Shown piece by piece: positions 48,074-63,887 of a DNA stretch of 64,000 nt; within the stretch, counting starts at the first letter, position 1; each line of letters begins with the position of its first letter. A program made the position numbers and the translations under genes. The stretch covers positions 54,148 through 118,147 of IMG/VR virus record IMGVR_UViG_3300008117_004020; one strand, given 5' to 3'. Source of the DNA: a virus. Below the pieces are notes generated by a model. It made no database searches, had not been told where the DNA came from, and worked only from the letters and a program-made list of their open reading frames with translations.

Positions 48074-49276
48074 TTAAACTGTATAAATAAACTCAGAAAC
48101 CTTACCATAGTTCTCGCTGTGACATTCTATGATGGCTTGACGCTTAGCTCCTACATATTTGTTGTGATAATGCCAGTAGTCAGTGGAGCAAAGACTTGGT
48201 AAATGCTTGATACTGAACCCATTGTGTTCATTTTCTGTAACATACTCTGTAGTCTTTTTACTATGGAAGTGACCAGTGTAACATGTTCTAAATTGTGTAT
48301 TACCCCATTGCACTGGAAACTCTGTAGCATAAACTAGTGGAGTATATTTTTTTGTTACATCCCCATGCTCAAACGCAAAGAAGTTTAAACCATAGGTGAT
48401 CACCTTGCGTTCTGAGTAGTCTGTTTTAAAAGATATGCTGTCATCATTAAAGCATTTCTCTAATGCATGAGCTAAATGGTATGAGCTTAGTCTGTCATGA
48501 TTACCAGGAATATAAACCACAACCAGGTTATTACAAAATTGTTTAATGTAATTTACTGACCAATATAAAGCATCAAATGCATCTTTATACGCATCCTGAG
48601 CCCTCTGGTCGTTATCTACAGGCGTACCTGATGTAGTGGTTCCATTAAAGGTATCCATGTTAAGAATGTCTCCTCCTATCACATAAACCACCTTATCTAC
48701 ATTATGTACCATGTAAGCCCTGTGTATAAGGTTTTCTATGGCAGCTTTAAACTCATCTATAATCCCTAGGTTTCCCTCTTTGCCAAAATGAAGATCTTGT
48801 ATAGATAATACAGCAGCCACCTTCTCTGCGTATTTAGTATTGATGTGGGGCTTACCTACAGGCTTATAACTAGGCTTAAACTCTTTAATAACCTCAGCTA
48901 GTATATCTTTAGGTTCTTTCTTTATAAGACTAACTAATGCAGAAACCAGCCACTTACCACCACCAGTTTCTTTATTCCAGTAGTTGGAAAGTTTCCATTT
49001 TGTTGTGTCAATCTTAAGTAGTTTGATAATTTCCTCAGGAGAGCGAGGTTCAGAGAGGGAGATTCCTTTGATTTCAGCAGTACCTTTGTCTAAGTCTTCT
49101 TTAAATTCTATTACTTTTTCTTTATCTTCTATATCCTCAACCTCAGACTTTTCTAAATGTAATACCTTGGTTTTCAGTTTCTTATATTGTTTGAGAGATA
49201 TTCCTAACTTCTCAGCACAATAAGCATCTGACTTTTTCCATTTTAACGTGGAATAAACACGATTGATTAAATTCAT
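48074..49276 (-). CDS. Calcineurin-like metallophosphoesterase with N-terminal HTH-like region
   Basis: A 400-residue protein. The C-terminal 250 residues carry all motifs of the calcineurin-like phosphoesterase fold: D161-L-H163, GGD (201-203), GNHD (258-261), HGD (304-306) and GHFH (335-338). These bind two metal ions, so the protein should hydrolyse a phosphoester, either nucleic acid or a small molecule. The first 40 residues (AEKLGISLKQYKKLKTKVL) look like a small helix-turn-helix, followed by a charged linker to about 150. It is the first gene after the glycosyltransferase cassette's terminator and ends about 60 bases before the ring-protein operon. Some related phage proteins are DNA nucleases; the substrate here is open. 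Confidence 0.85.
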   Translation of the reverse strand: MNLINRVYSTLKWKKSDAYCAEKLGISLKQYKKLKTKVLHLEKSEVEDIEDKEKVIEFKEDLDKGTAEIKGISLSEPRSPEEIIKLLKIDTTKWKLSNYWNKETGGGKWLVSALVSLIKKEPKDILAEVIKEFKPSYKPVGKPHINTKYAEKVAAVLSIQDLHFGKEGNLGIIDEFKAAIENLIHRAYMVHNVDKVVYVIGGDILNMDTFNGTTTSGTPVDNDQRAQDAYKDAFDALYWSVNYIKQFCNNLVVVYIPGNHDRLSSYHLAHALEKCFNDDSISFKTDYSERKVITYGLNFFAFEHGDVTKKYTPLVYATEFPVQWGNTQFRTCYTGHFHSKKTTEYVTENEHNGFSIKHLPSLCSTDYWHYHNKYVGAKRQAIIECHSENYGKVSEFIYTV

Positions 49277-49392: not shown

Positions 49393-50139
49393 TTATTTAA
49401 AAAAGTCTTGTGGAATTACACTTTGATAATCTTTTACATACCAAAAATTCTTTAAATACTTGTCATCGTTTATATAATGCACCTGATCTAAATTAGTCAA
49501 TTCTATTAACCTTGGTTTACCTAGTGCATGTGCTAGTGCTGTAATTCCTGTCATATTACCAACGTATTTTTTACCAGAATTAATGACTAAAGCAAGTTCA
49601 GAAACTGTATCTACTACAATTGATTCTACTGAATATTTAGATTTAAACGACTGAGCAAAAGCATCGTTAGTAGATATAAATAAACAATTTTCTTTTTCAA
49701 TAACCTCTCCCCATGGAAACTTATCATTATGTCTATGAAACGATCTATGAATTATAGTGTAATTTTCATAGTCTGATACTTTCTTATAAGACAGCCAATT
49801 TGTTGTAATTGGGTCAACCTTAAAAGTTTCAGATAACATTTCAATCCAACACTTTGAATATAAAAATCCTGAGTGTCTCCATTTATTTAAATTAATATCG
49901 ATTCTTTGATTATTATACACATCATAAGTGTTTATATAATCTTGAGACAATATTAAATCCTTTGTATCTAAAAGAACTTTTTTTGCACCATATGAAAAAC
50001 CATCCCCATCAAATCCTCCTGATGCTAAATAGACATTTCCTTTTTTACCATATTTAATGTAGTTTTGTTTTACTACCATTAAAGCATGAATAAAATCTCC
50101 TAGTTTACCGCCTGATACATAGTTAATTGTACCATTCAT
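49393..50139 (-). CDS. GT-B-like glycosyltransferase (heptosyltransferase/GT9-type pattern)
   Basis: A 248-residue protein. The N-terminus has a strand followed by GGKLGDFIHAL (10-20), the loop seen in heptosyltransferase-like GT-B enzymes. The C-terminal half contains ALVINSGKKYVGNMTGITALAHALGKP (given here in pieces: INSGKKYVG, then NMTGITALAHALGKP, about 185-210), which matches the sugar-nucleotide-binding region of GT9 proteins. It is shorter than a full two-domain heptosyltransferase (about 320 residues), so it may be a minimal form. It overlaps the upstream gene by one base and is the last gene before the terminator. It is expected to act in the host cytoplasm; donor and acceptor are unknown. 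Confidence 0.65.
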   Translation of the reverse strand: MNGTINYVSGGKLGDFIHALMVVKQNYIKYGKKGNVYLASGGFDGDGFSYGAKKVLLDTKDLILSQDYINTYDVYNNQRIDINLNKWRHSGFLYSKCWIEMLSETFKVDPITTNWLSYKKVSDYENYTIIHRSFHRHNDKFPWGEVIEKENCLFISTNDAFAQSFKSKYSVESIVVDTVSELALVINSGKKYVGNMTGITALAHALGKPRLIELTNLDQVHYINDDKYLKNFWYVKDYQSVIPQDFFK

Positions 50140-50975
50140 TAAAACAATTTATTTGATAGCTCTTTAAACTCTCCCCAGTAAGGATCAACTTCATCAACAC
50201 CATGCCCATATATAGTGAAGTGAGAAGTAAAATGTCTCCCATGATTCACATGAATGGCAGGATTTGCACAGTGCCATTTAGATCTTTTAGACTGAGGCTC
50301 TAGTAACACTTGACCATTTTGAATAGCTTCTTTAAATAACTTTTCAAAATGTGCTATAGCATCATTAAATCTCATAGTCATTTGATGAAGAGGTTCATGG
50401 TCAGCATTTCTTTTTTGAAAACCTGCTGAACATATTCCCATATAATTCATATTAGTGAGCACACCACCTTCAAAATCTGGGAAATCAAAATAACCATCAG
50501 GGTAAAGAACATCATGTTCAAGGAAACTTACATAATCATACTCCCCACTATTCTTGGCAGCATATAACAATTGGAGTATTTGAATTACAATATTCAAATG
50601 ATTACTACTTCTTGTCATAGCTCCCACTTCAAAAAATGGGTTGTTAGGTATTGGTTTCCAGACACATGTAAGAATATCAGCCTTATCTTTAAACTTTGTA
50701 AGAGTTTGTAAGCTTTCACTTACAACATTATCTACATTGTTATTAGTATAAAAAATACCTAACTTTCTACTTTTAGAATCTGGAAGTGTAAGATAAGATC
50801 CTTCTTGAATCTTTTTACTACCTCCTTCATATTCCACTTCTAAGTATTTAATTTGCCCAACTGCAGGATCACCAAAAATATCATTACCCACTTTAACTCT
50901 CAGCTGACCATCTTTAACTTTAGAATTTAATATAGATGTGACATCACGTCCACCATATGTAGCTTTCTTTATCAT
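50139..50975 (-). CDS. DUF3395-like domain fused to a glycosyltransferase-like domain
   Basis: I place the start at the ATG at 50975 (278 residues), because the frame upstream begins with TTG and the ATG forms an ATGA overlap with the TGA of the preceding gene. Residues about 3-65 (KATYGGRDVT, KVGNDIFGDP, KYLEVEY, EGSYLTLP) match the pattern I know as DUF3395, a small beta domain found at the end of some DnaJ-like and bacterial proteins. The rest reads as a GT-A-like domain, with YVSFLEHDVLYPDGYF, where E-H-D (153-155) would replace the usual DxD, and a C-terminal His-rich segment (NHGRHFTSHFTIYGHG). The fusion is unusual. It may modify a sugar or a virion glycan, which is inference. Confidence 0.55.
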   Translation of the reverse strand: MIKKATYGGRDVTSILNSKVKDGQLRVKVGNDIFGDPAVGQIKYLEVEYEGGSKKIQEGSYLTLPDSKSRKLGIFYTNNNVDNVVSESLQTLTKFKDKADILTCVWKPIPNNPFFEVGAMTRSSNHLNIVIQILQLLYAAKNSGEYDYVSFLEHDVLYPDGYFDFPDFEGGVLTNMNYMGICSAGFQKRNADHEPLHQMTMRFNDAIAHFEKLFKEAIQNGQVLLEPQSKRSKWHCANPAIHVNHGRHFTSHFTIYGHGVDEVDPYWGEFKELSNKLF

Positions 50976-51892
50976 AACAAACAAGAGGTTTTAGCTGTGT
51001 TAACAATTGCTTTAGCATAATTATAAGCACAAAACTTATTACTAAAACTTTCTTGTTTTATATCATAGGGAAGTTTACCAATGTATGCCCCCTTATAAAA
51101 CAATTCTCCAGGACCTGTAACACCTGCATTATGATAGATGGGATGTTTATCCCATTCACTGATTGGTGATGTAGCCCAGGAGAATGACAACTTATCTGTG
51201 GTTTCCACCTTTCTATCTAACACCCATAGATTCCAAAGAACTGCCCACATATCAGCACACCATATTTGAATAGCATGTGGAGGCTGATCTTTTGCAATCT
51301 GTTGATTTACAAGGCGAAACATTGTTTCACAATCTTGATAAACCTTTCTCCAAAACTCTGTAGGAATATTTTTAAGAATATATTGAGCACCTCCGCTATT
51401 CTTCTCTTGCTCAATAACATATTGTTTATTAACTCCTACAATCCCTGTCATCAAATCTAGATAGTGTTCTCCCTTAGAGCGAATATAATTAGCTCCTATG
51501 TAACTTGCAGTGTCACTGACATAGCATGTATCCAAATCCATAAGATCCTCAGTATCAAATGGTTTTGCCAATACAATATCACAATCGTGATAAAATACTG
51601 TTTTAGATGCTAGTTCAGGATTATGCACCCAATGCTTGTGCAAAACATGGGGACGTACACTTGGAATATATCCTGGTTTGAATCTTTCATCTGTATAAAA
51701 TGCAAATGTTACATCTGAATATTTAGTCTTTAGTTTTTCCCATTTTTCAGGAACAGTCCCATAATGGGAGCAAACTATGTGAATATTTTTAGGATCCACT
51801 TTATTCTCAATAAAGTTATCCAGCATCACTTCTACTTGCCAAGCATAATAGTCTATGGCAGGTTGAGCACACATGTAAATCATGTCATTCAT
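50972..51892 (-). CDS. GT-A-like glycosyltransferase
   Basis: A 306-residue protein with a nucleotide-sugar transferase layout: an N-terminal strand (MIYMCAQPAIDYY), alternating strands and helices, then VFYHDCDIVLAKP with D103-C-D105 as the metal-binding DxD motif. Further on, CADMWAVLWNLW and YHNAGVTGPGELFYKG (about 270-290) are typical of the acceptor-side half of such enzymes. No membrane anchor or signal peptide is present. It is the first gene of a three-gene cassette that begins right after a terminator and ends at another. Sugar and acceptor cannot be read off; the neighbouring Thr/Ser-rich fibre proteins are possible acceptors. Confidence 0.7.
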   Translation of the reverse strand: MNDMIYMCAQPAIDYYAWQVEVMLDNFIENKVDPKNIHIVCSHYGTVPEKWEKLKTKYSDVTFAFYTDERFKPGYIPSVRPHVLHKHWVHNPELASKTVFYHDCDIVLAKPFDTEDLMDLDTCYVSDTASYIGANYIRSKGEHYLDLMTGIVGVNKQYVIEQEKNSGGAQYILKNIPTEFWRKVYQDCETMFRLVNQQIAKDQPPHAIQIWCADMWAVLWNLWVLDRKVETTDKLSFSWATSPISEWDKHPIYHNAGVTGPGELFYKGAYIGKLPYDIKQESFSNKFCAYNYAKAIVNTAKTSCLL

Positions 51893-51913
51893 TGTTGGTT
51901 ATTTTTTGTTGGT

Positions 51914-51955
51914 TTATAAAAAAGTAGCTAGTCTCTACATAGAAAGACTGGCTAC
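51914..51955 (-). terminator. Terminator upstream of the glycosyltransferase cassette
   Basis: On the minus strand an 11-bp stem (GTAGCCAGTCT / AGACTAGCTAC, 51955-51945 with 51934-51924, one mismatch or G-T pair) with a 10-nt loop is followed by TTTTTTATA. It lies eight bases after the stop of the 352-residue gene and so ends the fibre/protease unit. The glycosyltransferase gene starts at 51892, about 20 bases on. Confidence 0.8.
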
Positions 51956-51962
51956 AAATATA

Positions 51963-53021
51963 TTACAAAATAGGATATGGATTTTGGTCCACTCTTGTAG
52001 TCATCCACCATACAGCACCTGTAAGAGCTGTGGCTAAAAAATTATAATCAATCCAGATTTTTCCACCACATGCCCAATTAGGTCCATAAGAATTTTGACA
52101 TAACCATGCCTGTTTTGCATCATCATAGCCAATAATCACCATTGAGTGAGTTGACATAAGAGTACCCCTAGAATTCCAGATGTAATCACAAGAAGGTGCA
52201 TTGTAATAATTATAATCCATTTGAAAATCTAACTTAAGACCATGATTATTACAAATAAGTCTTTTCATTGCATACAAATCAGTAGATTGTACATTACCAA
52301 ATCCTGTAATTTTATGATTTGCTGCATCATCTGCCATTGCTTGTGTAAACGCTGCAGTAGAACATCCATCTTGAGAATTATAAGGACAAAGTGACCATCT
52401 AGGTAATCCAACATTTAAACAAAAAGACAAATTTGTTAATGTAGCAGAACCACTTCCACAGCCTTCATTAAATTTTGTATAATTATATATATACTCAGGA
52501 CTCAATTCATTAGTAGACTGACTATATGATGTGGCACCTGTTGTATAATATTGTTCTATTGACCTCTGTAAAGCTGTTGCTTGAGCATTACAAGATCCCT
52601 CTCCTCCTTGATTCCATGCAGTGGGGGTAGCTAAGATTTTGCTACTAGGCAGTGTAGGGGGAGGAGCAATTGTAGTTGATGTGGTGGTAGTGGTAGTACT
52701 ATCTGTTCTATTAATTACAACAGAATGACTTGCTGTATTACCAGCAGCATCGTATGCCTTAGCTGTCAATGTAAAAATTCCTAGTTGTGTACTCACAGGC
52801 CATGCAGCACTATAAGGTGAACTAGTATCAGTTGCTAACAATGCTGTAGCACCAGTTGAATTATTCTTTACATAAAACTCCACTTTTGCTACAGCTTTGT
52901 TATCAGTAGCAGTAGCTGTTATACTAATAGTACTTGATGTTAAAAATATTTGTCCATTAGCAGGCGATGTGATAGTAACCACTGGTGCAGTTCTATCTTT
53001 AGAGCCAGTACCCCTTGCCAT
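51963..53021 (-). CDS. Ig-like domain plus papain-like cysteine protease, paralog 2
   Basis: A 352-residue protein. Residues about 10-105 form a bacterial Ig-like domain (PVVTITSPANG, KVEFYV, DAAGNT). A Thr/Ser/Pro linker (106-125) follows, then a C1 papain-like peptidase: Q138-G-G-E-G-S-C144 is the oxyanion Gln and catalytic Cys, H292 sits in STHSMVIIGYD, and N310 in QNSYGPNW. The catalytic residues are all present. The usual Trp after the Cys is Asn. There is no signal peptide, so the protein is probably displayed on the virion rather than secreted. It is a paralog of the 372-residue gene at 53479, whose first 23 residues are the same except the last few. It ends just before a terminator. 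Confidence 0.8.
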   Translation of the reverse strand: MARGTGSKDRTAPVVTITSPANGQIFLTSSTISITATATDNKAVAKVEFYVKNNSTGATALLATDTSSPYSAAWPVSTQLGIFTLTAKAYDAAGNTASHSVVINRTDSTTTTTTSTTIAPPPTLPSSKILATPTAWNQGGEGSCNAQATALQRSIEQYYTTGATSYSQSTNELSPEYIYNYTKFNEGCGSGSATLTNLSFCLNVGLPRWSLCPYNSQDGCSTAAFTQAMADDAANHKITGFGNVQSTDLYAMKRLICNNHGLKLDFQMDYNYYNAPSCDYIWNSRGTLMSTHSMVIIGYDDAKQAWLCQNSYGPNWACGGKIWIDYNFLATALTGAVWWMTTRVDQNPYPIL

Positions 53022-53040
53022 ATTATTAAAAGTTTATATA

Positions 53041-53442
53041 TTAAACAATCTTAGATGTACGATAACCATTGATACGGAAGTCTTCTGACATAATCATTGG
53101 AACATCAGCAAGATCTTCAGGAGAATCAACTACAACACCTGAGTTTTCATTCTCTCCACGAGGGCGTCCAATAACATTATCTTTAAACAACTCCATGTAG
53201 TTTCCTACAGGTACAATAGTAGACACTACCAATGAACCATTAATTACATTTCCATTAGCATCCAACTGTACAAAAAATCTGTTGTTGCCAGCAAATGCAG
53301 GTTTAAATGAATCAGAAATAGGTCCATTAATTACATTCTTCACTTGAATGTGTCCTGTAGATGGTCTTCTATTAGCTCTAATGTTAGAACCTGCTAAGGG
53401 TAAACCATTTCTACCCCTTCTGAAATACAAATTTTGTCCCAT
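53041..53442 (-). CDS. Small unknown protein between the two protease genes
   Basis: A 133-residue protein starting GQNLYFRRGRNGLPLAGSNIRANRRP, a basic Gly/Arg/Asn-rich and probably flexible N-terminus. A beta-rich part follows (FFVQLDANGNVINGSLVVSTIVPVG) with an acidic end (DSPEDLADVPMIMSEDF). No signal peptide, membrane segment or catalytic motif is visible. It lies between two paralogous protease genes with gaps of 19 and 36 bases. It may be a virion decoration protein or a linker for the proteases. I do not recognise a family. Confidence 0.6.
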   Translation of the reverse strand: MGQNLYFRRGRNGLPLAGSNIRANRRPSTGHIQVKNVINGPISDSFKPAFAGNNRFFVQLDANGNVINGSLVVSTIVPVGNYMELFKDNVIGRPRGENENSGVVVDSPEDLADVPMIMSEDFRINGYRTSKIV

Positions 53443-53478
53443 TTTTTTTATTATTTTAAATATTAAAGAATTAATTTA

Positions 53479-54597
53479 TTAAAGAATTGGATATGGATTC
53501 TGATCAATCCTTGTTGTCATCCAGTATAGTCCACCAGTTTTTACAGGTAAAAAGTTATACGCTATCCACAACTGCCCATTGCATCCCCAATTTGTTCCCC
53601 ATGAGTTTTGACATAACCAAGCTTGTTTAGTGTCATCATATCCAATAATAGAAACCGCATGAGTACTCATAGGTGTTCCAACACTGTTCCAGATATAATT
53701 ACATGGTGCAATACCTTGATCAGTACCAGTATAGTAAAAATTACTATCCACTTGAAAAGTAAAATGAAGAGCGTGATTATTATTAATCAAACGCTTCATA
53801 GAATAAATATCAGTTGGTTGAACCACACCATATCTAGTAATCTTATAGTTAGCAGCATCATCAAGCATACCTTGTGTAAAACTTGTAACACTGCATCCAT
53901 TTTGATAATTCCATGGACATATTGATGATCTGCAAATTCCAACTCTAGTGATTTTTCCAAATGTTGTAAGTGTTGCAGTGCCATATCCACATCCATCACA
54001 AGTAGGACTAACAAAGTCTTCTACTGTAATGGGTTCAACACAATTACATATTTGAATATTATAGAGCCACTCAGGACTTAAAATATTAGTAGCTGTGCTA
54101 TAAGATGTAGCTCCTGTAGTGTAATATTCTTCTATAGATCTAGTTAATGTAGCAGACATAGTACAACAAGATCCTTCTCCACCCTGGTACCATACAGGAG
54201 GAGCAGCTAATATTTTACTAGCTGGTAAAGTTGGTGGTGGTGCTATGGTGGTACTTGTAGTAGTGGTGGTAGTGCTATCTGTTCTGGTCACTACAATAGA
54301 ATGTGTAGAAAAGTTACCAGATGTATCTACAGCTTTTGCTGTAATAGTATAGTTACCCACCTGTACAGGTACAGGCCAAGTTGTACTATATGGTGAAGTT
54401 GTATCAGTAGCTAATGCACCAACAGCACCTGTTGAATTATTAGTCACTTGAAATTCTACTCTTGCCACTGCTTTATTATCTGTAGCTGTAGCTGTAATTG
54501 TTATTGTACCTGCTGTAGTATACAAGGTACCATTTGCTGGGGAAGTGATAGTAACCACAGGGGCTGTCCTATCTTTTGAACCTGTTCCGCGTGCCAT
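53479..54597 (-). CDS. Ig-like domain plus papain-like cysteine protease, paralog 1
   Basis: A 372-residue protein with the same order as the gene at 51963: an Ig-like domain (about 10-105), a Thr/Ser/Pro linker, then a papain-like C1 peptidase with Q138, C144 (in QGGEGSC), H313 (STHAVSIIGYD) and N331 (QNSWGTNW). The NSWG motif is the family standard, and six residues separate the Gln and Cys as in papain. The Trp after the catalytic Cys is replaced by Cys. Additional Cys pairs (CNCVEP, CDGCGYG, CRSSICPW) suggest disulfides, fitting an extracellular setting. A promoter-like motif lies about 30-50 bases before the ATG. Possible targets are host surface proteins or capsule-associated proteins; this is not shown by the sequence. 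Confidence 0.85.
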   Translation of the reverse strand: MARGTGSKDRTAPVVTITSPANGTLYTTAGTITITATATDNKAVARVEFQVTNNSTGAVGALATDTTSPYSTTWPVPVQVGNYTITAKAVDTSGNFSTHSIVVTRTDSTTTTTTSTTIAPPPTLPASKILAAPPVWYQGGEGSCCTMSATLTRSIEEYYTTGATSYSTATNILSPEWLYNIQICNCVEPITVEDFVSPTCDGCGYGTATLTTFGKITRVGICRSSICPWNYQNGCSVTSFTQGMLDDAANYKITRYGVVQPTDIYSMKRLINNNHALHFTFQVDSNFYYTGTDQGIAPCNYIWNSVGTPMSTHAVSIIGYDDTKQAWLCQNSWGTNWGCNGQLWIAYNFLPVKTGGLYWMTTRIDQNPYPIL

Positions 54598-54625
54598 AGT
54601 TGTAAGGATTAAATTGTTATAAGTT

Positions 54626-54650
54626 TATAATATAATATACAAAATTTTTA
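54626..54650 (-). promoter_or_regulatory. Phage promoter-like motif, copy B
   Basis: The minus strand reads TAAAAATTTTGTATATTA and continues TATTATA. It shares an uninterrupted 21-base stretch with copy C and 19 bases with copy A. It lies about 30 bases before the ATG at 54597 and could drive the protease pair (54597 to 51963), whose unit ends at the terminator at 51914-51955. Confidence 0.6.
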
Positions 54651-54663
54651 GGGGTTTGCCTAA

Positions 54664-55734
54664 TTAAACTGCTGTAATTGTTACAGTATTTACTGCCTGT
54701 AGAGCAACTACATCTCCATCAGTTACTAAAGCTGTTGGTATTGTAAGACTTATAGTGTTTCCTGATATTCCTGCAAATACTCCATCATCTCCTGTAGTTG
54801 AGCCCAAACTTGTACATGCAGGTAAAGTGATGGTAGTTAATGAATCACAATTATTAAAGCAACCATCCACTATTGTAGTTACACCAGGTAGGTTAACTGT
54901 TGCTAAAAGAACTGCATTTTGTAAACTTGCACATGTTATAATACAACCTGCCTGATCATTTATACCAATCAGATTATCATTAGATGGAGTATTTAATGTT
55001 GATATTGTACCTGAAGATAATGTTATTCCAGATCCACCATATAAATAAATTTGTGTGCCACTTGGATCAGCAGTAACATTTGTAAATGGTGTCCCATTTG
55101 TTGGCAAATTAAATACTGTATTCCATTGCCCAACATTAAATGGATCTGTTACACCAGTAGCATTATAATCTTGAAGTGTAATAATTAATGGTAATGGGCA
55201 ACTTCCTTCTCCTGATACAACAGATTCACCCAACACAAAACTACCTGGAACAGCCTCCACCTCAATACATTCAAATGGATCTAGAGCATCAGAAATCTGT
55301 GTTCCAAAACAATCTGTATATTGATAATCTTGAGGAGCCAGATTAGCTAAATTTAATATATAATAACTTGTACAATCAGGATTAATAGTAGTAGTGGTAG
55401 TAGTAGTTGATGTACTTGTAGTTGTAGAAGTGGTTGACGTTGAGGTTGTAGTAGAAGTGGTACTAGTTGTCGTAGTGGAAGTGGTTGTAGTGGTACACTC
55501 ACACAAAAACTGACTTATTAGATTTAAAATATCTAATAAACTATCACCTGGATTAATTCCATAATCCTCTAAAAATGTACCATTGTATATAATACATTCT
55601 GCTGGTATTACAACATCACATCCTGGTTCATTAGGATTGTATGTAGTTGTTGTAGTTGTAAAAGCTGTAGTAGTTGTAGTGATTTGGTTACAACAACATG
55701 GATTACAATAACATCCGCAATTATAATGTGCCAT
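54664..55734 (-). CDS. Fibre protein with Thr/Ser linker and BspA-like LRR C-terminus
   Basis: A 356-residue protein. The first 17 residues are very Cys-rich (NCGCYCNPCCCN). Residues about 47-80 (CIIYNGTF...GDSLLDILNLISQFLCEC) resemble the N-terminal motif of the 429-residue fibre at 62598. A Thr/Ser linker (about 81-118) leads to one copy of the recurring Cys-rich domain (119-175: CTSYYILNL, YTDCFG). The C-terminal 100 residues have BspA-type leucine-rich repeat units (GCFNNCDSLTTITLPACTSLG). Such repeats are common on Bacteroidota surface proteins. It is probably a tail or head fibre that meets the host surface. Its stop lies 66 bases before the protease gene's start. Confidence 0.65.
   Translation of the reverse strand: MAHYNCGCYCNPCCCNQITTTTTAFTTTTTTYNPNEPGCDVVIPAECIIYNGTFLEDYGINPGDSLLDILNLISQFLCECTTTTTSTTTTSTTSTTTSTSTTSTTTSTSTTTTTTTINPDCTSYYILNLANLAPQDYQYTDCFGTQISDALDPFECIEVEAVPGSFVLGESVVSGEGSCPLPLIITLQDYNATGVTDPFNVGQWNTVFNLPTNGTPFTNVTADPSGTQIYLYGGSGITLSSGTISTLNTPSNDNLIGINDQAGCIITCASLQNAVLLATVNLPGVTTIVDGCFNNCDSLTTITLPACTSLGSTTGDDGVFAGISGNTISLTIPTALVTDGDVVALQAVNTVTITAV
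55386..55498 (-). repeat. Thr/Ser codon repeat (linker of the 356-aa fibre protein)
   Basis: Degenerate ACN/TCN triplets in the gene's frame encode about 38 consecutive Thr and Ser residues. Similar runs occur in neighbouring genes. Confidence 0.85.
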
Positions 55735-55747
55735 AGTTATATTTAAA

Positions 55748-57679
55748 TTATGGGGTTATAGTGACTACCACTGACTGAGCTGTAAGTGCTGCTACTGCTG
55801 CATTAACAGCTGGAGTAAATGATCTAGTTCCTCTTAAATTAATTTCTAATGTAAAGTTTAGTGCTGTATATCCTGGAGGATATGTCCATGTTTTAATAGA
55901 CAAATCAAGTAATAATTGGTCAATATCAGGAGTGGGCATGTTACCAGCAGATACAGGCATAACACTCACTTGACTCATTCTAATAGGACTCCATATCTTA
56001 CCATTATATCCTGTAACAGTATTATTACCTCTGAGTTCAATATTTTCCAATGATGTAGGTGTATCTCCCAAATCACCAGTCAATATGCAAGCCAAATCAC
56101 TACTGTCAATTGAGAATTGTTTAATACCTGCAGGTAATGTTGCAATATCTCCTATCACCGTATTAGCACCTTGAAGTGTAAACTCATCTATACTAGGAAT
56201 TATTGCAGCCAATGAGCTAATATTACCTGTAATTGTATTGCCACCAGGAGCATCTCCTCTTACATTAAATTTAATAGTAGTTGTTGGTGATGCACCTACA
56301 CCTGTAGGCATATCTACCAAGTCTCCATATACAGTGTTAAATCCACCAATGCTTGTACTATATACTGTCTTAGGAATATCAGCAATATCACCAGTGACAG
56401 TATTTCCATATCCTGGAGGAGTTGTAAATGGATCATTATCAATTGATAAGATAACAAGAGGTAGAGTTGAAAGACTTGACAAATCACCTGACAATGAAGA
56501 CCATCCAAGTATTGATATTCTAATCAAACCTGCTAATGCACTAAATGCAGCAATGTCTCCATCAATAGTATTAAATCCATGAATAGTAATCTCTGTAATA
56601 ACAGTGTATGTAGAGAATACAGAAATATCTCCTGTAAGTGTATTTTTACCTTGTATTACTAATCTTGTCATTGCTGTTGCATATCCAGCTGGCAAATCAA
56701 TAATATCACCACTAATAGTATTATTACCTTGTATTACACAAAGCGTTAAGTTAGGAGGCAAATCACCCACATCTCCAGAAAGTATATTAGCTTCAATTGA
56801 TGTTAAGTTTAATTGAGTGAGAGTTGTAGGAAGATCTGCAACATCACCTGTCAAAATCCCTTTATAGCTTGTAAGTCTTGTTAATGTATCTGGTAACTCT
56901 GACGCATCAGCATTAAGTATTGTAGTGATGCTGTATAGTTGTTGAAGATTTACAAGTTTACTAATCTCAGGACCAGTAATAGTCAAACTACCTACAGTGA
57001 AAGTATTTATATTGTCTGTACGCAATTCAGTGATTGCAGCCAAACTAGCAGTTAATATTTTAACCTCTCCAGTAAATGGTGAAGAATAAGTGTGAGTTCC
57101 AACGTTTGTTGTGCTACCAAGATAGGATGTTTGATTACCATCACCCCAGTCAACTATAAATGGAACTGAAGTTACAATCTTACGAATGTTTAATTTATTA
57201 ATACCAGATGCAAACATTTTAAATACCTCATAGCATTCTGAATCTCTAGAGCATTCATCTACTCCTCCAGTTACTATAATATCACCTGTACCGCTATATT
57301 GAATAGAACCTTCCTTAGCACAGAAATTATTTGTTTCATCAGCTAAATAATCAATGTTTTCATTACCATCACAATCAATCCATTCTACTGCATATGAGCC
57401 ACCTGTAGTATCCACCTTATAGCAATAGCATGGAACAGTGGTTGTTGTAGTTGGCAACTGTACTATTACATTATTAGTACATATTACACCATCAGAAATC
57501 AATTTAATTTCTGTTGTACCATCAGGAACATTTACAGAGGTAAACCCAGACAACAATGCAGCCTTAGAAATATCATTTTCAAATGGTGTTGTAAATCCAT
57601 CCACATTTGAATAAATATCAAATACAGGACCTGCATCTACTCCTGCTGCTGTTATTGTTATAATTGCTGTAAAAGACAT
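55748..57679 (-). CDS. LRR-type fibre protein with PKD-like domain
   Basis: A 643-residue protein. Residues 1-72 form an N-terminal domain also found in the 977-residue protein (GPVFDIYSN, VPDGTTEIKLISDG). A short Thr run leads to a Cys-rich domain (about 80-145), then a PKD-like stretch (FIVDWGDGNQTSYLG, about 165-180). From about 215 to 560 there are some twelve repeats of 25-30 residues with the pattern L-x-x-L-x-I-x-G-x-N-T-(I/V)-(S/T)-G-D-(I/V), a leucine-rich or beta-solenoid array. Each contains the NT-x-x-GDI core. It is likely a receptor-binding fibre with variable repeat faces. Gaps of 13 and 21 bases separate it from its neighbours in the fibre operon. Confidence 0.7.
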   Translation of the reverse strand: MSFTAIITITAAGVDAGPVFDIYSNVDGFTTPFENDISKAALLSGFTSVNVPDGTTEIKLISDGVICTNNVIVQLPTTTTTVPCYCYKVDTTGGSYAVEWIDCDGNENIDYLADETNNFCAKEGSIQYSGTGDIIVTGGVDECSRDSECYEVFKMFASGINKLNIRKIVTSVPFIVDWGDGNQTSYLGSTTNVGTHTYSSPFTGEVKILTASLAAITELRTDNINTFTVGSLTITGPEISKLVNLQQLYSITTILNADASELPDTLTRLTSYKGILTGDVADLPTTLTQLNLTSIEANILSGDVGDLPPNLTLCVIQGNNTISGDIIDLPAGYATAMTRLVIQGKNTLTGDISVFSTYTVITEITIHGFNTIDGDIAAFSALAGLIRISILGWSSLSGDLSSLSTLPLVILSIDNDPFTTPPGYGNTVTGDIADIPKTVYSTSIGGFNTVYGDLVDMPTGVGASPTTTIKFNVRGDAPGGNTITGNISSLAAIIPSIDEFTLQGANTVIGDIATLPAGIKQFSIDSSDLACILTGDLGDTPTSLENIELRGNNTVTGYNGKIWSPIRMSQVSVMPVSAGNMPTPDIDQLLLDLSIKTWTYPPGYTALNFTLEINLRGTRSFTPAVNAAVAALTAQSVVVTITP

Positions 57680-57700
57680 ATTATTTTATTTTATAATAAA

Positions 57701-60634
57701 TTATATAGTTGTTGTAGTTGTTGTATATAAACAAGTATCAATTGCAGTTATAACAGAAAAGCCTCCCACTAAAGATACTGTAACTATCTGAACTGATGTG
57801 GTCGCTGGATCTCTTAAATAAACATCTACATTAATTGCAGTATTAGGTTGATAAATATAATACCCTGCGCTAATATTAGTACAACTTGTTAATGACCACC
57901 CTGGATAAACTCTTTCTCCAATAGTTAAAGAATTTATCTCAATTTGTGTAAATCCATAACTTCCACCTGTACCTACATGATAATAGTTAAATGCATTACA
58001 AGCATCTACTACTGAAACAGTTCTAAAATTCCAAATTGGATCTCCTGCATTTTGAACTTGGGATACTAATATACCATCAGTTAATCCAGTAGGTCTTTGA
58101 CATACAGTTGTTGTAGTTGTGGTAGACGTTGTACTAGTAGTAGTAGAGGTGGTTGAAGTAGTAGTTGTAGGTGCTGGTTCTCCACAATTAACATCAATTC
58201 TTTCAACGCATGTTCCTGAATCAATATCGTAACTATATCCACCTGGACAACCAAAATTGCTACAGAAATTACTATTATACAAAGGACCTGTAGATCTGTA
58301 GTTTTCAGTGGTAAACACTATATTAATCATTGCTGTAGAGGTAGCAGCAATTAACTCAGACAAAGTATTATCATATATTTCTGCAGCAAAACCACCAACC
58401 TGAGTTCTATTCCATCCCTCTAATTCAATTACATTAGTACCTGCTGGTATTTGAACTGGATATATATGCCAATAGTTAAAGTTTATATTTGTACCTGCAG
58501 CACTTGATCCTATACCATATTGATCTACTATAATAGTACCATTAAGCTTTATAGTCACATCATTATCACCAGCAATTCCAATATAATATATTTTACTTTC
58601 AGTTAATTCAACTGTATCACATAAACTAACATAATCTGGATAAGCAGGATCAGGCCAAAAAGCATTTCCACTCACCCAAACACCTGTTGTATTCAATCTT
58701 TGTCTCCAGAATGCTGTATTTGCTGGTTCAGGCGTTGGACCTCCAAAAGCTGCAGTAAGTCCTTGGAATGCATATGTAGTACTAATAGAGTTACCTAAAA
58801 TATCATAGTCATTAATGTTGTAGATTCTAAATCCACCATTTCCATACGCAAGATTAGGAGTTATATCAGCAGTTAACAAAGTATCAACTATTGAGGGGGG
58901 AGTTTCATTTACAGCTACACAACCAGATTCATCAGGTAATACAGTAAATCCAGGAGGACAATCACAAACAGTTGTAGTTGTAGTTGTGGTAGGTTCTACT
59001 GTAGTAGTCGTTGTAGTAGATGTTGTTGTTGATGTTGTACTAGTTGTTGTAGTAGTTGTAGGCTCTATTGTGGTAGTTGTAGTTGTGGATGTTGTTGTAG
59101 ATGTAGTACTAGTGGTGGTTGTTGTAAATGGACATGAATAATCTGGACCATACCACTGCATAACTTCCTCACATGGAGCTGTTAAATTTTCAACTATTTC
59201 CACTCCATCTGCTGCAATAGGATTTTTACCACAGTAAACAAGAGTTTGACCTGCAAAAATAAATCCTAAATTTAAATTATTAAAGCAATTTCTAAATGAA
59301 AAATTTAATCCTTCACCTGTAGTATTGGTAAATGTAATACAATGACAATCAGTAATTAATAATGGACAATCATAAGTTTCTCCATCTAATACACACTCAA
59401 CTCCTGATTTTACATAATAAACTGCAATACTTGGAACTATAGTATCGTAATAGCCACAAACATTAATTGGACTACCAAATGATATATTATCGCTCACAGT
59501 ATTTCCAAAACAATCTGTATATTGATATGGATAACTTCCTTCTATATTAGTTGAGATATTAAAACATTCACATAATGGACAATCTGTGTTTGATACGCAT
59601 GGATCACCCACTGTAATTGTAGGAGCTGTTTCAAATCCTGAATATGTAACAGAACCTTCTCTAGCACAGAAAGAATAAGGACCTATTTGATCTATTGAAT
59701 TAATTGTAATTTCTTCACCATCACAATTGATATAACCCACACTATAACTTTCTGGCCAAGAAATGCCATTAGGTAATGACACTGTATGACATAAGCATAT
59801 AGGTGCAGTAGTAGTTGTAGTTACACAATATCCAGTACATGGATCCAATTGAACAACAAGATCTACTATTCCTGCTCCAGCATATTGAACAATACTTGCA
59901 TCCCAAGCACATATTTTAGCCACTTCATCTGTAAAGGTATCAGTTGTAATAATATTATCATACCCTGTCCATCTTAATGACACTTCACCTATTATTGTTA
60001 ATTCATAACAATAACTCATAGGAGCGGCACAATCAATTGAACAATCTCCTTCTGGAGTTACTACTAATCCAGGAGTAGTCACTACATTGCTTAAATTAGA
60101 ACAAATAAACTTAATTTCACCAATAGCCATTTCTTCTACTAGTGTATCCCCAAATGTTGGAGAATCTACATTACAATCCACCCAAGTTACACTCTCAATA
60201 GATAAACCTGGATTAATCACCTTATAACAATTGCATGGCAATGTTGTTGTGGTGGTGGTACTTGTCGTAGAAGTAGAAGTAGTGGATGTTGATGTAGTAG
60301 TAGGTATAATGACCTCCACTTCAAAACCACAGTTTGGAATCTGTGTAGTGGTACTTGTGGTACTGGTAGTTGATGTAGTTGAGGTGGTAGTTGTTGTAGG
60401 AATTACAAATTCATATGTAATTTCACAATCGCTTAAAATATCAACTAAACGTATTTTAGTGCAATCATCTGGCACCACTGTAGAAATATATCCAGCTTGA
60501 AGTTGAGCTAGTGTAATATTAAAATCAAATGCAGGATAAATCAAATTACCCAATGAATCTACGCAATGCAGATTAAATGGACCACTGAGAGCTGATCCAG
60601 ATGAAGTTACCGTTATAAGTACTTTTTTTGCCAT
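57701..60634 (-). CDS. Multidomain fibre protein of Cys-rich domains and Thr/Ser linkers
   Basis: A 977-residue protein. The N-terminal 75 residues are the same adaptor-like domain as in the 643-residue protein. Two Thr/Ser linkers (about 79-97 and 111-132) follow, then about five copies of a Cys-rich domain of 60-75 residues (signatures CNCYKV, SYCYELT, CLCHTV, CECFNI, CHCITF, each with a later DC-x-G or NCF and a Cys near the end). A long tandem Thr/Ser linker follows (about 500-555), then a CPPGFTVLPDESGC motif, a beta-sandwich that looks sugar-binding (YYIGIAGDNDVTIKLNG...PAGTNVIELEGWN), a CPGGYSYDIDSGTC motif, another linker and a final domain. The protein ends inside a Thr run (YTTTTTTI). 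Probably a tail fibre. Confidence 0.7.
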   Translation of the reverse strand: MAKKVLITVTSSGSALSGPFNLHCVDSLGNLIYPAFDFNITLAQLQAGYISTVVPDDCTKIRLVDILSDCEITYEFVIPTTTTTSTTSTTSTTSTTTQIPNCGFEVEVIIPTTTSTSTTSTSTTSTTTTTTLPCNCYKVINPGLSIESVTWVDCNVDSPTFGDTLVEEMAIGEIKFICSNLSNVVTTPGLVVTPEGDCSIDCAAPMSYCYELTIIGEVSLRWTGYDNIITTDTFTDEVAKICAWDASIVQYAGAGIVDLVVQLDPCTGYCVTTTTTAPICLCHTVSLPNGISWPESYSVGYINCDGEEITINSIDQIGPYSFCAREGSVTYSGFETAPTITVGDPCVSNTDCPLCECFNISTNIEGSYPYQYTDCFGNTVSDNISFGSPINVCGYYDTIVPSIAVYYVKSGVECVLDGETYDCPLLITDCHCITFTNTTGEGLNFSFRNCFNNLNLGFIFAGQTLVYCGKNPIAADGVEIVENLTAPCEEVMQWYGPDYSCPFTTTTTSTTSTTTSTTTTTTIEPTTTTTTSTTSTTTSTTTTTTVEPTTTTTTTVCDCPPGFTVLPDESGCVAVNETPPSIVDTLLTADITPNLAYGNGGFRIYNINDYDILGNSISTTYAFQGLTAAFGGPTPEPANTAFWRQRLNTTGVWVSGNAFWPDPAYPDYVSLCDTVELTESKIYYIGIAGDNDVTIKLNGTIIVDQYGIGSSAAGTNINFNYWHIYPVQIPAGTNVIELEGWNRTQVGGFAAEIYDNTLSELIAATSTAMINIVFTTENYRSTGPLYNSNFCSNFGCPGGYSYDIDSGTCVERIDVNCGEPAPTTTTSTTSTTTSTTSTTTTTTVCQRPTGLTDGILVSQVQNAGDPIWNFRTVSVVDACNAFNYYHVGTGGSYGFTQIEINSLTIGERVYPGWSLTSCTNISAGYYIYQPNTAINVDVYLRDPATTSVQIVTVSLVGGFSVITAIDTCLYTTTTTTI
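58972..59129 (-). repeat. Tandem Thr/Ser codon repeat in the 977-aa fibre gene
   Basis: Two near-identical units encode Thr/Ser runs separated by IEP and VEP. This is a tandem duplication of a linker of about 22 codons, followed by a shorter Thr run. Further runs lie at 58100-58172, 60241-60307 and 60344-60402. Confidence 0.85.
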
Positions 60635-60660
60635 TTGATTTATATCACACTATTATAAGT

Positions 60661-61845
60661 TTAAGGACAAGGAGATCCATTAGGTGAAGCTAATACATTA
60701 GGATCGCTTCCTATGATACTACCAGGAACTGCACAAATAGTATCTGTAGCACCAGCTGTTATTAAAATAGTTCCGCTTGGAGCACCAAGACAGTTTGTAT
60801 AAGTGTAACTAGCTGCAGGTTCTCCAGGAAGAACATCATAAAATACGTTATAACCAATACAAGCAATTGTTGTAGTGGTAGTTGTACTACTAGTTGTAGT
60901 AGTGCTAGTAGTGCTAGTAGTTGTACTAGTTGATGTTGTAGTTGAAGTTGTGCTGGTAGTAGTACTAGTACTAGTCGTAGTTGTCGTACTGCTAGTAGTC
61001 GTTGTTGTGTCATTTACAAGTTCTATAGTTCCTGTAATTTCACAAGGATTTAGTGTAGTACTTGTAGTGGTTGTTGTAGGAAATGATATTTCAAAATCAA
61101 AATCACACAATGGACCATCACACACCACTTGAGTGTTTGTTATTATAATACCAGGTATTGGTATTACAGGAACAAAATCATCACATCCACATACTTCTAG
61201 CGTTTCTCCAGCTAGAATAGTTAATACAGCATCGTAACTACCATTTGCGCTACATCCTGTATAATTTCTAATCCATGTGTTGTTAGTGTTATTAACTACT
61301 GTAAAAATATTACAGGTACACTCGTACACATCATCACACGCATCATCAGATAATTGATTAATCTCAATGCCTTGTATTGGAGATAACAACTCAATATCTG
61401 AACATCCACATACCACCTTGCGTTGGTTAGGATATACAGTTACAGTTAATTGTGAGTTTTGATCGCCATCACATCCTGTATAAGTGCGGGTAAACTCGTT
61501 ATTTGTTAAGTTGATTATCTCATATGTATGACAAATACATACATTGTTAATATTACAATCAGGATCATTAGTAGCGTCCTCAATTAAGATTCCCGCAGGA
61601 ATATTAGAAGGAACTAGATTAATACATCCTGTAAATACTTTTGATACCCCATCCTCAACCACAGCTGTAACCAATGTGTTAGTACCATCTTGATTACATT
61701 TGAAATAGTTACGCGTCCAAGTAGATCCTGATGTATTTGTAATTCTATAACAAGAACACTCACAATTACATCTATCTGTTAATTCCTCTAAAATATCAGC
61801 AATTACAGTACATACATTATCATCAGGATTAATATTTTCAGACAT
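60661..61845 (-). CDS. Cys-rich tandem-domain fibre protein
   Basis: A 394-residue protein. Three tandem copies of a 65-70-residue domain lie at about 30-97, 103-170 and 176-242. Each runs C-x-C, an aromatic-hydrophobic strand with NxT, (W/F)-x-R-x-Y-(T/F)-x-C, a strand, a CGC or TGC turn, and a closing strand with (I/P)-x-GI-x-I. A Thr/Ser linker of about 47 residues (280-326) joins them to a fourth, related domain (329-394). It is a virion or fibre protein by context. The start overlaps the upstream 64-codon gene by 43 bases. The Cys spacing points to disulfides or metal binding; neither is proven. Confidence 0.65.
   Translation of the reverse strand: MSENINPDDNVCTVIADILEELTDRCNCECSCYRITNTSGSTWTRNYFKCNQDGTNTLVTAVVEDGVSKVFTGCINLVPSNIPAGILIEDATNDPDCNINNVCICHTYEIINLTNNEFTRTYTGCDGDQNSQLTVTVYPNQRKVVCGCSDIELLSPIQGIEINQLSDDACDDVYECTCNIFTVVNNTNNTWIRNYTGCSANGSYDAVLTILAGETLEVCGCDDFVPVIPIPGIIITNTQVVCDGPLCDFDFEISFPTTTTTSTTLNPCEITGTIELVNDTTTTTSSTTTTTSTSTTTSTTSTTTSTSTTTSTTSTTTTSSTTTTTTIACIGYNVFYDVLPGEPAASYTYTNCLGAPSGTILITAGATDTICAVPGSIIGSDPNVLASPNGSPCP
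60868..61011 (-). repeat. Thr/Ser codon repeat in the 394-aa gene
   Basis: Degenerate ACN, TCN and AGT triplets encode about 47 consecutive Thr/Ser residues, the longest unbroken run in the window. The complementary strand shows a false open frame of Val and Leu. Confidence 0.85.
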
Positions 61846-61997
61846 GGTATATTAGGAGGTTGAATGCAGCATAAATCAAAATATTCCCCCTCACATGGAT
61901 CAACAGGTTTACAGGTGGTAAGATTAGTTACCCCTGGAGGTACGCAGCATGCGCATCCTTCTTTTTTTACCCCAGTTGTTTTGCAAGTACAAGACAT
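61803..61997 (-). CDS. Short Cys-rich protein
   Basis: A 64-residue frame in the fibre operon. The first 52 residues hold twelve Cys (SCTCKTTG, EGCACC, DPCEGEYFDLCC). The start MSCTCK resembles the MSCSYQ start of the gene upstream and the Cys-rich start of the 356-residue protein. Without it the gap would be 167 bases, unusual in this tightly packed genome. The last 13 residues overlap the start of the 394-residue gene in another frame and are hydrophobic. Possibly a small structural or disulfide-rich protein. Less certain than its neighbours. Confidence 0.55.
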   Translation of the reverse strand: MSCTCKTTGVKKEGCACCVPPGVTNLTTCKPVDPCEGEYFDLCCIQPPNIPCLKILILMIMYVL

Positions 61998-62012
61998 TTA
62001 CTTATATCAGAT

Positions 62013-62579
62013 TTATGTACAAGGTGGAAATGTAAAGTCACCCCCTAATGCTATAAACTCAGCATATGGAAATACAGGAAATGATACTGGAACACTTGAT
62101 GTGGCAGGAGCCTCAACTACCCCTGTTCCACCTCCACTAAAATACATAGTAGAAGCAATAGAAGGCAATGTTTTAAATGCAATATATAACACATCTCCTC
62201 TGTTACCATCGGATTTTAAACTCATACCAGTAATAGTAAATAAGCCAGCAAATGGAGTTTGATTTAATGCAGCTAATATATCTCCTGATGTTGAACCTGT
62301 ATTTATATTTGATAAAAAAGGATAATAAACATTATCAACTGTAATTCCTCCTATTTCTACATCATTATAAACAGGTGTGGGAGGATCTGGCACAGAACTA
62401 TTTTCAGACTCCCCAAATACTACCCCATAACATTCTATTGTTTCTACATTAGTTAAATTTAAACAATCATTTACAGAATCTAATTGTGCTGTATCTGTTG
62501 CAGCAATAAGAGTAGCTCCAGGAGGCAATACAAATTGCTCATTGGGTTGAAGCGTTACTGATTGATATGAACATGACAT
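62013..62579 (-). CDS. Small virion protein, unknown
   Basis: A 188-residue beta-rich protein (VTLQPNEQFVLPPGATLIAATD). The middle has Pro/Asn-rich and Gly/Thr/Ser-rich segments and no Thr run, and it ends FTFPPCT. It has few charged residues, as in decoration or fibre proteins. It sits between the Cys-rich 64-codon gene and the 429-residue fibre gene with gaps of 15 and 18 bases. The family is not recognised. A structural role is inferred from its neighbours. Confidence 0.55.
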   Translation of the reverse strand: MSCSYQSVTLQPNEQFVLPPGATLIAATDTAQLDSVNDCLNLTNVETIECYGVVFGESENSSVPDPPTPVYNDVEIGGITVDNVYYPFLSNINTGSTSGDILAALNQTPFAGLFTITGMSLKSDGNRGDVLYIAFKTLPSIASTMYFSGGGTGVVEAPATSSVPVSFPVFPYAEFIALGGDFTFPPCT

Positions 62580-62597
62580 ATTATAAGTATTTTAAAT

Positions 62598-63887
62598 TTA
62601 TGTAATTGGAGCTGCTGTAGTAGTGGTTGTTGTTGGACAAATTGTATAAACAATTGTATTTTCAGAATCACTAGTATTAGTAATTACACAACAATCTGGA
62701 GCAACAGGAGGAACTGTAGTGCTAAAGCACTTAATACATGTTGTATCTCCATTAGTCAAACACAAATCTGATGTTATAGTCAATCCTGTGGTTGCATCAA
62801 GCGGTGACAATGAAAGATCAATTTCATAACCATTAGCAAGTACACCAGCATCCTCTAGAACATCTTCTCTTATTTTAATATATGTAAACCATTGAGCACC
62901 ATTACCATCAGTGAATAAGAATTTGTTTCCTAATGTTTCATCACAATCGTTAAATCCATTTGGAATACTTGTCTTAGGAAGGAAGAAGAACAATAATGTT
63001 TCTTCATCAAGCGCCTTAACATCAAATCCAAACATAATATCATCACATGTAATCTTGCAACAGTTATCCTGAATAGCTTTAACAGCCCCTCTTAAATCAC
63101 AAATAGCCAACCACATTTTATCCAATGTTTCAGCAATATTTGTAGAAACCCCAGTCCAAAGATCAGTAGTGGGGTCAGTGAGTTTTTTTACAGGAAGAGT
63201 GCATTCTTTATCTATTACATCTAGCAAATCACCAGTTCCACCTAATGTTTCTTTTAGTGTACAATAATCTTGCTCAATACTTTCAACCGCTTCATCAATA
63301 GGTTTAACTCCTGGAGTGATACATGTTAACGTAACAGTGGTGCCTCCCTCATTTTCTAATGCAGTGATCCTGTCATCATGATCTATTAATGTATTATTAA
63401 TATTTGTAATATCACTATTAAGTCCTGCCACCTCATTAATTAGAATACACAACTTTTGTGCAATCTTCTGAACATACTGACTAATGGTTACATCTTTTGT
63501 AATATCACCATTTCCATCAGTAAAATCAGGATAGAAACATGTAGCTATTCTGATTAAAGTTTCATCTGTAGACCCACCTGTAAGTTGAGCAATCATTTCC
63601 TCAAGTGTACACACCTTGTCAATCAACAGCTGTAATACCACTTTAAGAGTTTTTTCAGGATCTGGGCATAATGCGCAGTTATCTATGATACATTTTAAAT
63701 CTAAATCACTTAGATTTAATTGTTCTTTCAAATCACAGATTTCTTCTGCTAATCTATAAATCACCTCAGACACACTATCTCCCTTGCAAAGATTAATGCA
63801 TGATATATCAGGACCCTGCCACACTATACAATTAGATGAGACAGGAGAACAGTTTTCCTTATTTAAATTTGAATTTGTAGGAATCAT
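62598..63887 (-). CDS. Coiled-coil fibre protein
   Basis: A 429-residue protein, the first gene of the minus-strand region shown. Residues 20-52 (CIVWQGPDISC...GDSVSEVIYRLAEEIC) are a motif I recognise from fibre-like proteins of Bacteroidota phages. Between about 40 and 200 the pattern is helical with heptads (SDLDLKCIIDN, LNSDITNINNTLIDHDDRITALENE), a trimeric coiled-coil candidate. A beta-rich head follows (about 270-400). The C-terminus is a Thr run with AAPIT. A long leader of about 90 bases with a promoter-like motif precedes it. Structural role likely; exact position in the virion unknown. Confidence 0.65.
   Translation of the reverse strand: MIPTNSNLNKENCSPVSSNCIVWQGPDISCINLCKGDSVSEVIYRLAEEICDLKEQLNLSDLDLKCIIDNCALCPDPEKTLKVVLQLLIDKVCTLEEMIAQLTGGSTDETLIRIATCFYPDFTDGNGDITKDVTISQYVQKIAQKLCILINEVAGLNSDITNINNTLIDHDDRITALENEGGTTVTLTCITPGVKPIDEAVESIEQDYCTLKETLGGTGDLLDVIDKECTLPVKKLTDPTTDLWTGVSTNIAETLDKMWLAICDLRGAVKAIQDNCCKITCDDIMFGFDVKALDEETLLFFFLPKTSIPNGFNDCDETLGNKFLFTDGNGAQWFTYIKIREDVLEDAGVLANGYEIDLSLSPLDATTGLTITSDLCLTNGDTTCIKCFSTTVPPVAPDCCVITNTSDSENTIVYTICPTTTTTTAAPIT

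Follow-up and report, generated by a model that had tools for sequence, protein, structure and literature searches.

In the serine-rich-repeat adhesins of Gram-positive bacteria, a low-complexity Ser/Thr protein is encoded beside its own cytoplasmic transferases and is exported, the initiating enzyme being a GtfA/GtfB pair of the GT-B fold (GT4-type). The glycocins are glycosylated ribosomally synthesized and post-translationally modified peptides (RiPPs), in which a transferase lies beside a ribosomal peptide with a leader and an exporter. In phages, virion glycosylation has been described for the mycobacteriophages Che8, Corndog and Myrna (Freeman et al. 2023, as cited in later papers), for which a phage-encoded transferase has been proposed, with glycans reported at the C-termini of capsid and tail-tube subunits, where they reportedly shield the particles from antibodies (PMC12619734, PMC12363180). 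So far, such glycosylation is established for a handful of mycobacteriophages. Here we describe a locus whose genes and predicted structures suggest that it is probably a variant of phage virion glycosylation with a distinct enzyme and acceptor. It lies in a stretch of 64,000 nucleotides (the window), the right-hand 64 kb of the linear, 118,147-base virus record IMGVR_UViG_3300008117_004020 (positions 54,148 to 118,147), and comprises three overlapping genes, GT-a, GT-b and GT-c, directly downstream of genes whose products carry runs of Thr and Ser. In our assessment, this cassette is likely to be a virion O-glycosylation module that uses the Thr runs of virion proteins.

GT-a (50972-51892, minus strand; 306 residues) matches phrog_4417, a family listed as of unknown function, over its full length (E 4.3e-67, profile positions 1-291 of 293). 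Searches by sequence in Pfam, NCBIfam and the PDB placed it in no transferase family, so that a fold search was required. An AlphaFold2 model built from 64 homologues (pLDDT 96.6) found the catalytic domain of UGGT as its best Foldseek match in the PDB (E 6.6e-7, prob 1.00), with further matches to LARGE1, alpha-1,3-galactosyltransferase (GT6) and LgtC (GT8), all of them GT-A enzymes and mostly from retaining families. The TM-scores were modest (0.4-0.5), and the likeness is therefore one of fold; no profile of GT8, GT24, GT6 or a similar family in Pfam or NCBIfam matched GT-a. When viral structures were searched, a glycosyltransferase family 8 protein ranked directly behind two homologues. 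The DxD metal/donor motif (D103/D105) is invariant in alignments of 64 and of 16 sequences and, like a Gly-Ala-Gln motif at residues 168-170, across all clades. Confident models thus predict a GT-A-fold glycosyltransferase.

The same holds for GT-b (50139-50978, minus strand), which overlaps both its neighbours and probably starts at the ATG at 50975: its model (AlphaFold2, pLDDT 88.9) is also a confident prediction of a GT-A-fold glycosyltransferase, matching CHSY3 (E 9.8e-6) and heparosan synthase 2 (E 2.4e-5) in Foldseek searches of the PDB. At its N-terminus, this GT-A domain is fused to a segment similar to L-rhamnose-binding lectins (5h4s, E 3e-14). A GT-a homologue lies beside GT-b in 11 of 21 GT-b loci, several of the remainder being truncated, and no relatives of GT-b were found among catalogued phages. 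GT-c (49393-50139, minus strand) matched heptosyltransferase I below threshold (TIGR02193, E 0.056) and nothing else in profile and homologue searches including PHROG and Pfam, a faint hint of a heptosyltransferase-like transferase, possibly of the GT-B fold. The initial annotation, made from the sequence without database searches, had put forward three transferases of two folds; the models bear out GT-a and GT-b as GT-A enzymes, but with GT-c below threshold the second fold is unproven.

Compared with the mucin-type O-glycosylation of eukaryotes, this locus has in common that the presumed acceptors are dense Thr/Ser(/Pro) tracts and that a stepwise addition of sugars is proposed. It differs in that GT-a has no Pfam family and a fold nearest to GT24/GT8/GT6-type enzymes; no polypeptide N-acetylgalactosamine-transferase appeared among the 50 GT-a PDB structure matches listed, nor was there a Pfam match to the GT27-type layout of a GT2-type catalytic domain with a ricin-type lectin domain. 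As in the serine-rich-repeat adhesins, low-complexity Ser/Thr proteins adjoin their transferases, but GT-a is predicted to be a GT-A rather than a GT-B enzyme and its candidate substrates are virion proteins.

The Thr/Ser runs upstream of the cassette are in frame and, counted from a length of at least five residues, occur in seven adjacent minus-strand genes (51963-63887). Linkers of 20-47 residues had originally been noted in at least six fibre genes: the runs are real, yet those of at least 18 residues (maximum 47) are confined to three of the seven genes, the other four carrying runs of 5-10. The three are putative fibre proteins at 60661-61845 (runs of 47, at 60868-61008, and 8 residues), 57701-60634 (18, 20, 19, 20 and 21, plus 7, 6 and 5) and 54664-55734 (36, at 55387-55494, 6 and 5; a weak C-terminal match to BspA-type leucine-rich repeats). 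The protein of 57701-60634 has the C-terminus TTTTTTI, its six-residue run stopping one residue short of the protein end. Shorter runs are found in a putative fibre protein at 55748-57679 (five Thr), in two putative fibre proteins that combine a Big_7 immunoglobulin (Ig) domain with a papain-family peptidase domain (53479-54597 and 51963-53021, with 10-residue Thr/Ser linkers at 54247-54276 and 52671-52700 respectively), and in a putative structural protein at 62598-63887 (six residues near the C-terminus, ending ...TTTTTTAAPIT). We infer that these are fibre proteins from the gene layout and from their domains, i.e. Big_7 with the papain-type domain and the weak BspA-type repeats. Matches of the Thr-rich fibres to tail-protein families phrog_14018 and phrog_5073 were set aside because they cover the Thr tracts themselves.

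To compare loci, we kept 80 of the 292 GT-a relatives found in viral contigs, took as control 39 random viral loci picked by an arbitrary 15-base word, and counted runs of at least seven Thr/Ser residues. Such a run was present in 70 of the 80 GT-a loci versus 2 of the 39 random ones, so that the co-occurrence in relatives which the initial annotation had named beforehand as a check came out positive, and it extends across unrelated phages. Thr runs were found in 5 of 31 loci of relatives that are free of GT-a, and among 20 records related through a tail gene of this phage there was no GT-a and a single (ACN)8 tract. Gene order is consistent as well, with the Thr-run open reading frame (ORF) immediately adjoining that of GT-a in 57 of 69 loci. 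The random loci contain 0.61 such runs per 100 kb, and near GT-a their density is about 58-fold above that of random viral DNA. These figures bear on the idea that the tracts arose neutrally, by DNA slippage, which would fit the general abundance of low-complexity segments in proteins (PMC6821194) and to which we give almost no credence. All four Thr codons are mixed in the window's tracts (60 ACT, 52 ACA, 22 ACC and 8 ACG), with a codon entropy of 1.71 bits versus 1.42 in the remainder of the window; a microsatellite or simple-repeat artefact is thereby ruled out, and the runs are therefore maintained at the protein level. Codon mixing and enrichment already largely refute slippage, and the recurrence of runs at the C-termini of different structural families, described next, argues against it too.

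GT-a homologues are present in 74 catalogued phage records, chiefly phages of Lactobacillus, Enterococcus, Staphylococcus and Lactococcus, together with a single Chryseobacterium and a single Arcanobacterium phage. All 20 loci that we sampled from these records and read have a Thr-rich stretch near GT-a; runs reach at least seven residues in 17, and only looser stretches are seen in the other three (L304, L335 and L342). In 16 of the 20, the run lies no more than 10 residues from a C-terminus, mostly that of a major capsid or tail protein, and at such an extreme end it is not a linker. Thus the major tail protein of phiFL1C ends ...TTTTTSTTTTTTSSTTTTTTTQASSK, orf13 of Lactococcus lactis phage 1706, whose transferase is orf14, ends ...VTTTTTTTTTTHHD, the R9.1 major head protein ends ...TTTTTTTSHV and the major capsid protein of Enterococcus phage 4995_1 ends ...TTTTTTKPTTTTTTTQA. 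The tagged proteins examined belong to several families (major tail phrog_238, 88, 2645 and 14018; major head phrog_29; Ig phrog_1240/215), so the tag recurs on different kinds of protein.

The C-terminal position of these tails is also the site reported for the glycans of the mycobacteriophage system, and in both cases the proposed substrates of a phage-encoded transferase are structural proteins of the same phage. This precedent counts in favour of virion glycosylation by GT-a, which may work like the mycobacteriophage system. The two differ in that here the enzyme belongs to phrog_4417, the substrate would be a Thr run and, in this phage, the runs are mainly internal linkers of fibres. A shared origin was tested in Che8 and not borne out by this phage, which has no match to the GT-a profile and no Thr runs at the C-termini of its major capsid and tail proteins, and which is therefore not the same system; nor is there a mycobacteriophage among the 74 catalogued records.

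Several of the sampled phages show further features of their own. In four genomes (L298, L299, L303 and L336), Thr runs terminate two different structural proteins, apparently one of the head and one of the tail. The GT-a gene of Enterococcus phage phiFL1C (L299, 5001-5877) is split into two frames with an internal stop, so that this copy may be inactive, while the major tail protein retains its Thr tail. In Staphylococcus-type phages and Arcanobacterium phage TPWB06 (L302:4232-4934, L305:4164-4926, L337, L339:1617-2430 and L343), the coding sequence of the major tail protein terminates ...ACT CCC TAA, and a +1-frame ORF that overlaps it continues with further Thr runs. The arrangement resembles a programmed +1 frameshift (CCC-stop) by which some of the tail subunits would receive a long Thr tail.

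The relatives of GT-a in bacteria lie among genes for peptide modification. Among 27 loci from bacterial genomes, a C39-peptidase ABC exporter is encoded in 16, and LanC-like proteins and radical-SAM peptide maturases also occur beside the GT-a homologues, which mostly lie in RiPP clusters of Sphingobacterium, Chitinophaga, Pedobacter and relatives. The likeness to glycocins resides in these Bacteroidota clusters, the RiPP features belonging to the bacterial relatives and not to the phage itself. GG-leader precursors were found in ten bacterial loci; in two (L323, Sphingobacterium bovisgrunnientis, and L328, Niabella aurantiaca) the precursor lies directly 5' of the GT-a homologue and has a core with six to seven consecutive Thr (VSWTTTTTTSS; TNLDETTTTTTTG), and the remaining bacterial loci have short Thr clusters or none. 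A tree of GT-a resolves three groups, namely catalogued phages, environmental phages (this one among them) and the RiPP homologues; Thr-run proteins adjoin members of all three, in the last just occasionally. In one of the bacterial loci, from Chitinophaga niastensis (L313:6001-7743), the GT-a homologue is fused to a second domain that matches Glyco_transf_7C (E 2.9e-7), a fusion that suggests an enzyme catalysing two steps within a RiPP cluster.

These bacterial loci bear on two alternatives. GT-a could glycosylate other sites on virion or peptide substrates, the Thr runs only helping to present those sites, as docking segments or spacers; most precursors in the RiPP clusters indeed show no more than dispersed Thr close to the beginning of the core, but the Thr-rich stretch is the sole feature common to the tagged proteins, and we consider this explanation very unlikely. 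That the transferases modify the bases of phage DNA seems scarcely credible to us: DNA glycosylation is common among phages (PMC12619734), but the gene order is with structural genes and the relatives are in RiPP clusters, and no link with DNA-modification genes was noticed, although no search aimed at such genes was made. The original proposal, in which the Thr/Ser linkers are glycosylated by the phage itself, has gained support from the relatives in RiPP clusters and from the co-occurrence with GT-a; the sugars, it suggested, might stiffen the fibres, conceal them or bind host lectins. The idea also widens, with support from the comparative sequence data, from the fibres of one phage to what would be a general pairing of tag and enzyme that takes in capsid and tail-tube proteins and other hosts.

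A number of observations weigh against a role of GT-a in modifying Thr runs. The loci share ancestry, and the p-values for co-occurrence are therefore too small, including that obtained with the GT-a loci clipped to 8.4 kb (66 of 80 with a run versus 2 of 39 random loci; Fisher p 8e-17). Some apparent exceptions have a contig cut just 5' of GT-a or contain shorter Thr clusters, but three loci (L016, L017 and L035) carry GT-a with no clear upstream run and are true exceptions so far. A long run occurs in just 2 of the 22 loci of the RiPP group. The association is moreover one-directional, Thr tracts often being present without GT-a: only 14 of 71 true Thr-tract loci have the gene, it was found nowhere in any of 23 chosen GT-a-negative tract records, and some of the GT-a-free tracts may be unmodified. 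In four GT-a-negative loci (L210, L224, L244 and L197) GT4- or GT2-type transferases are encoded near the tract gene, hinting that other transferases could fill the role of GT-a there.

The many tract-bearing phages without GT-a would also suit a different explanation. Under it, the tracts carry no modification and act as flexible spacers, and the targets of the transferases are glycans on the host surface, as in receptor masking or seroconversion; the transferases would travel with fibre genes since both serve host recognition. Phage transferases that alter the host serotype are known (PMC12619734). We nevertheless judge this explanation unlikely: in the catalogued phages the runs sit at the extreme ends of capsid and tail-tube proteins and not between domains, GT-a lies in the head-tail morphogenesis region and not beside receptor-binding genes, and the bacterial homologues are in RiPP clusters.

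If virion O-glycosylation is the task of the cassette, GT-a would act in the host cytoplasm, where it would recognize Thr runs, with some Ser, on freshly synthesized virion proteins and attach a first sugar from a nucleotide-sugar donor, O-linked, to many residues of each run. GT-b, with its lectin-like N-terminal segment, and possibly GT-c would then extend the glycan. The acceptors would be inter-domain linkers and some C-terminal tails of fibre proteins in this phage, and C-terminal tails of major capsid and major tail proteins in others, and the outcome would be a dense, mucin-like sugar coat over exposed parts of the particle. A bolder proposal, to which we give roughly even chances, is that phrog_4417 enzymes read homopolymeric Thr tags wherever these are attached, a dedicated Thr-run glycosylation code by which a short portable tag and one enzyme would yield a mucin-like coat on phage capsids, tail tubes and fibres and would modify bacterial RiPP precursors, the staphylococcal-type phages adding a long tag to a fraction of their tail proteins by +1 frameshifting. 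Were glycosylation of Thr runs borne out, it would be widespread, given the 292 related stretches from viruses and the 74 records of catalogued phages, and predictable from a simple signature, a Thr run with an adjacent phrog_4417 gene. It would also give that family a function, link the coats of phage particles to bacterial peptide modification and offer a possible research tool, a peptide tag that is portable and comes with a dedicated transferase. The dairy phages, which are easily handled, make the proposal directly testable. Open-licence papers yielded nothing relevant on Thr-run phage proteins, an absence that is no proof that they are undescribed.

Elsewhere in the window, 40435-45303 encodes a large virion structural protein with distant matches in the phage catalogue that include csAssE-Sib and the Cellulophaga phages phi17:2 and phi4:1, a homology that suggests a crAss-like context for this phage. 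The gene at 48074-49276, which separates the structural genes from the transferase cassette, matches DNA repair exonuclease families (phrog_704, E 1.3e-51). The two Big_7 proteins at 51963-53021 and 53479-54597 are paralogues that share the order Big_7, short Thr linker and Peptidase_C1 (E 1e-8 and 3.5e-12 respectively), this last being a papain-family cysteine peptidase domain; a peptidase carried by a phage fibre is unusual.

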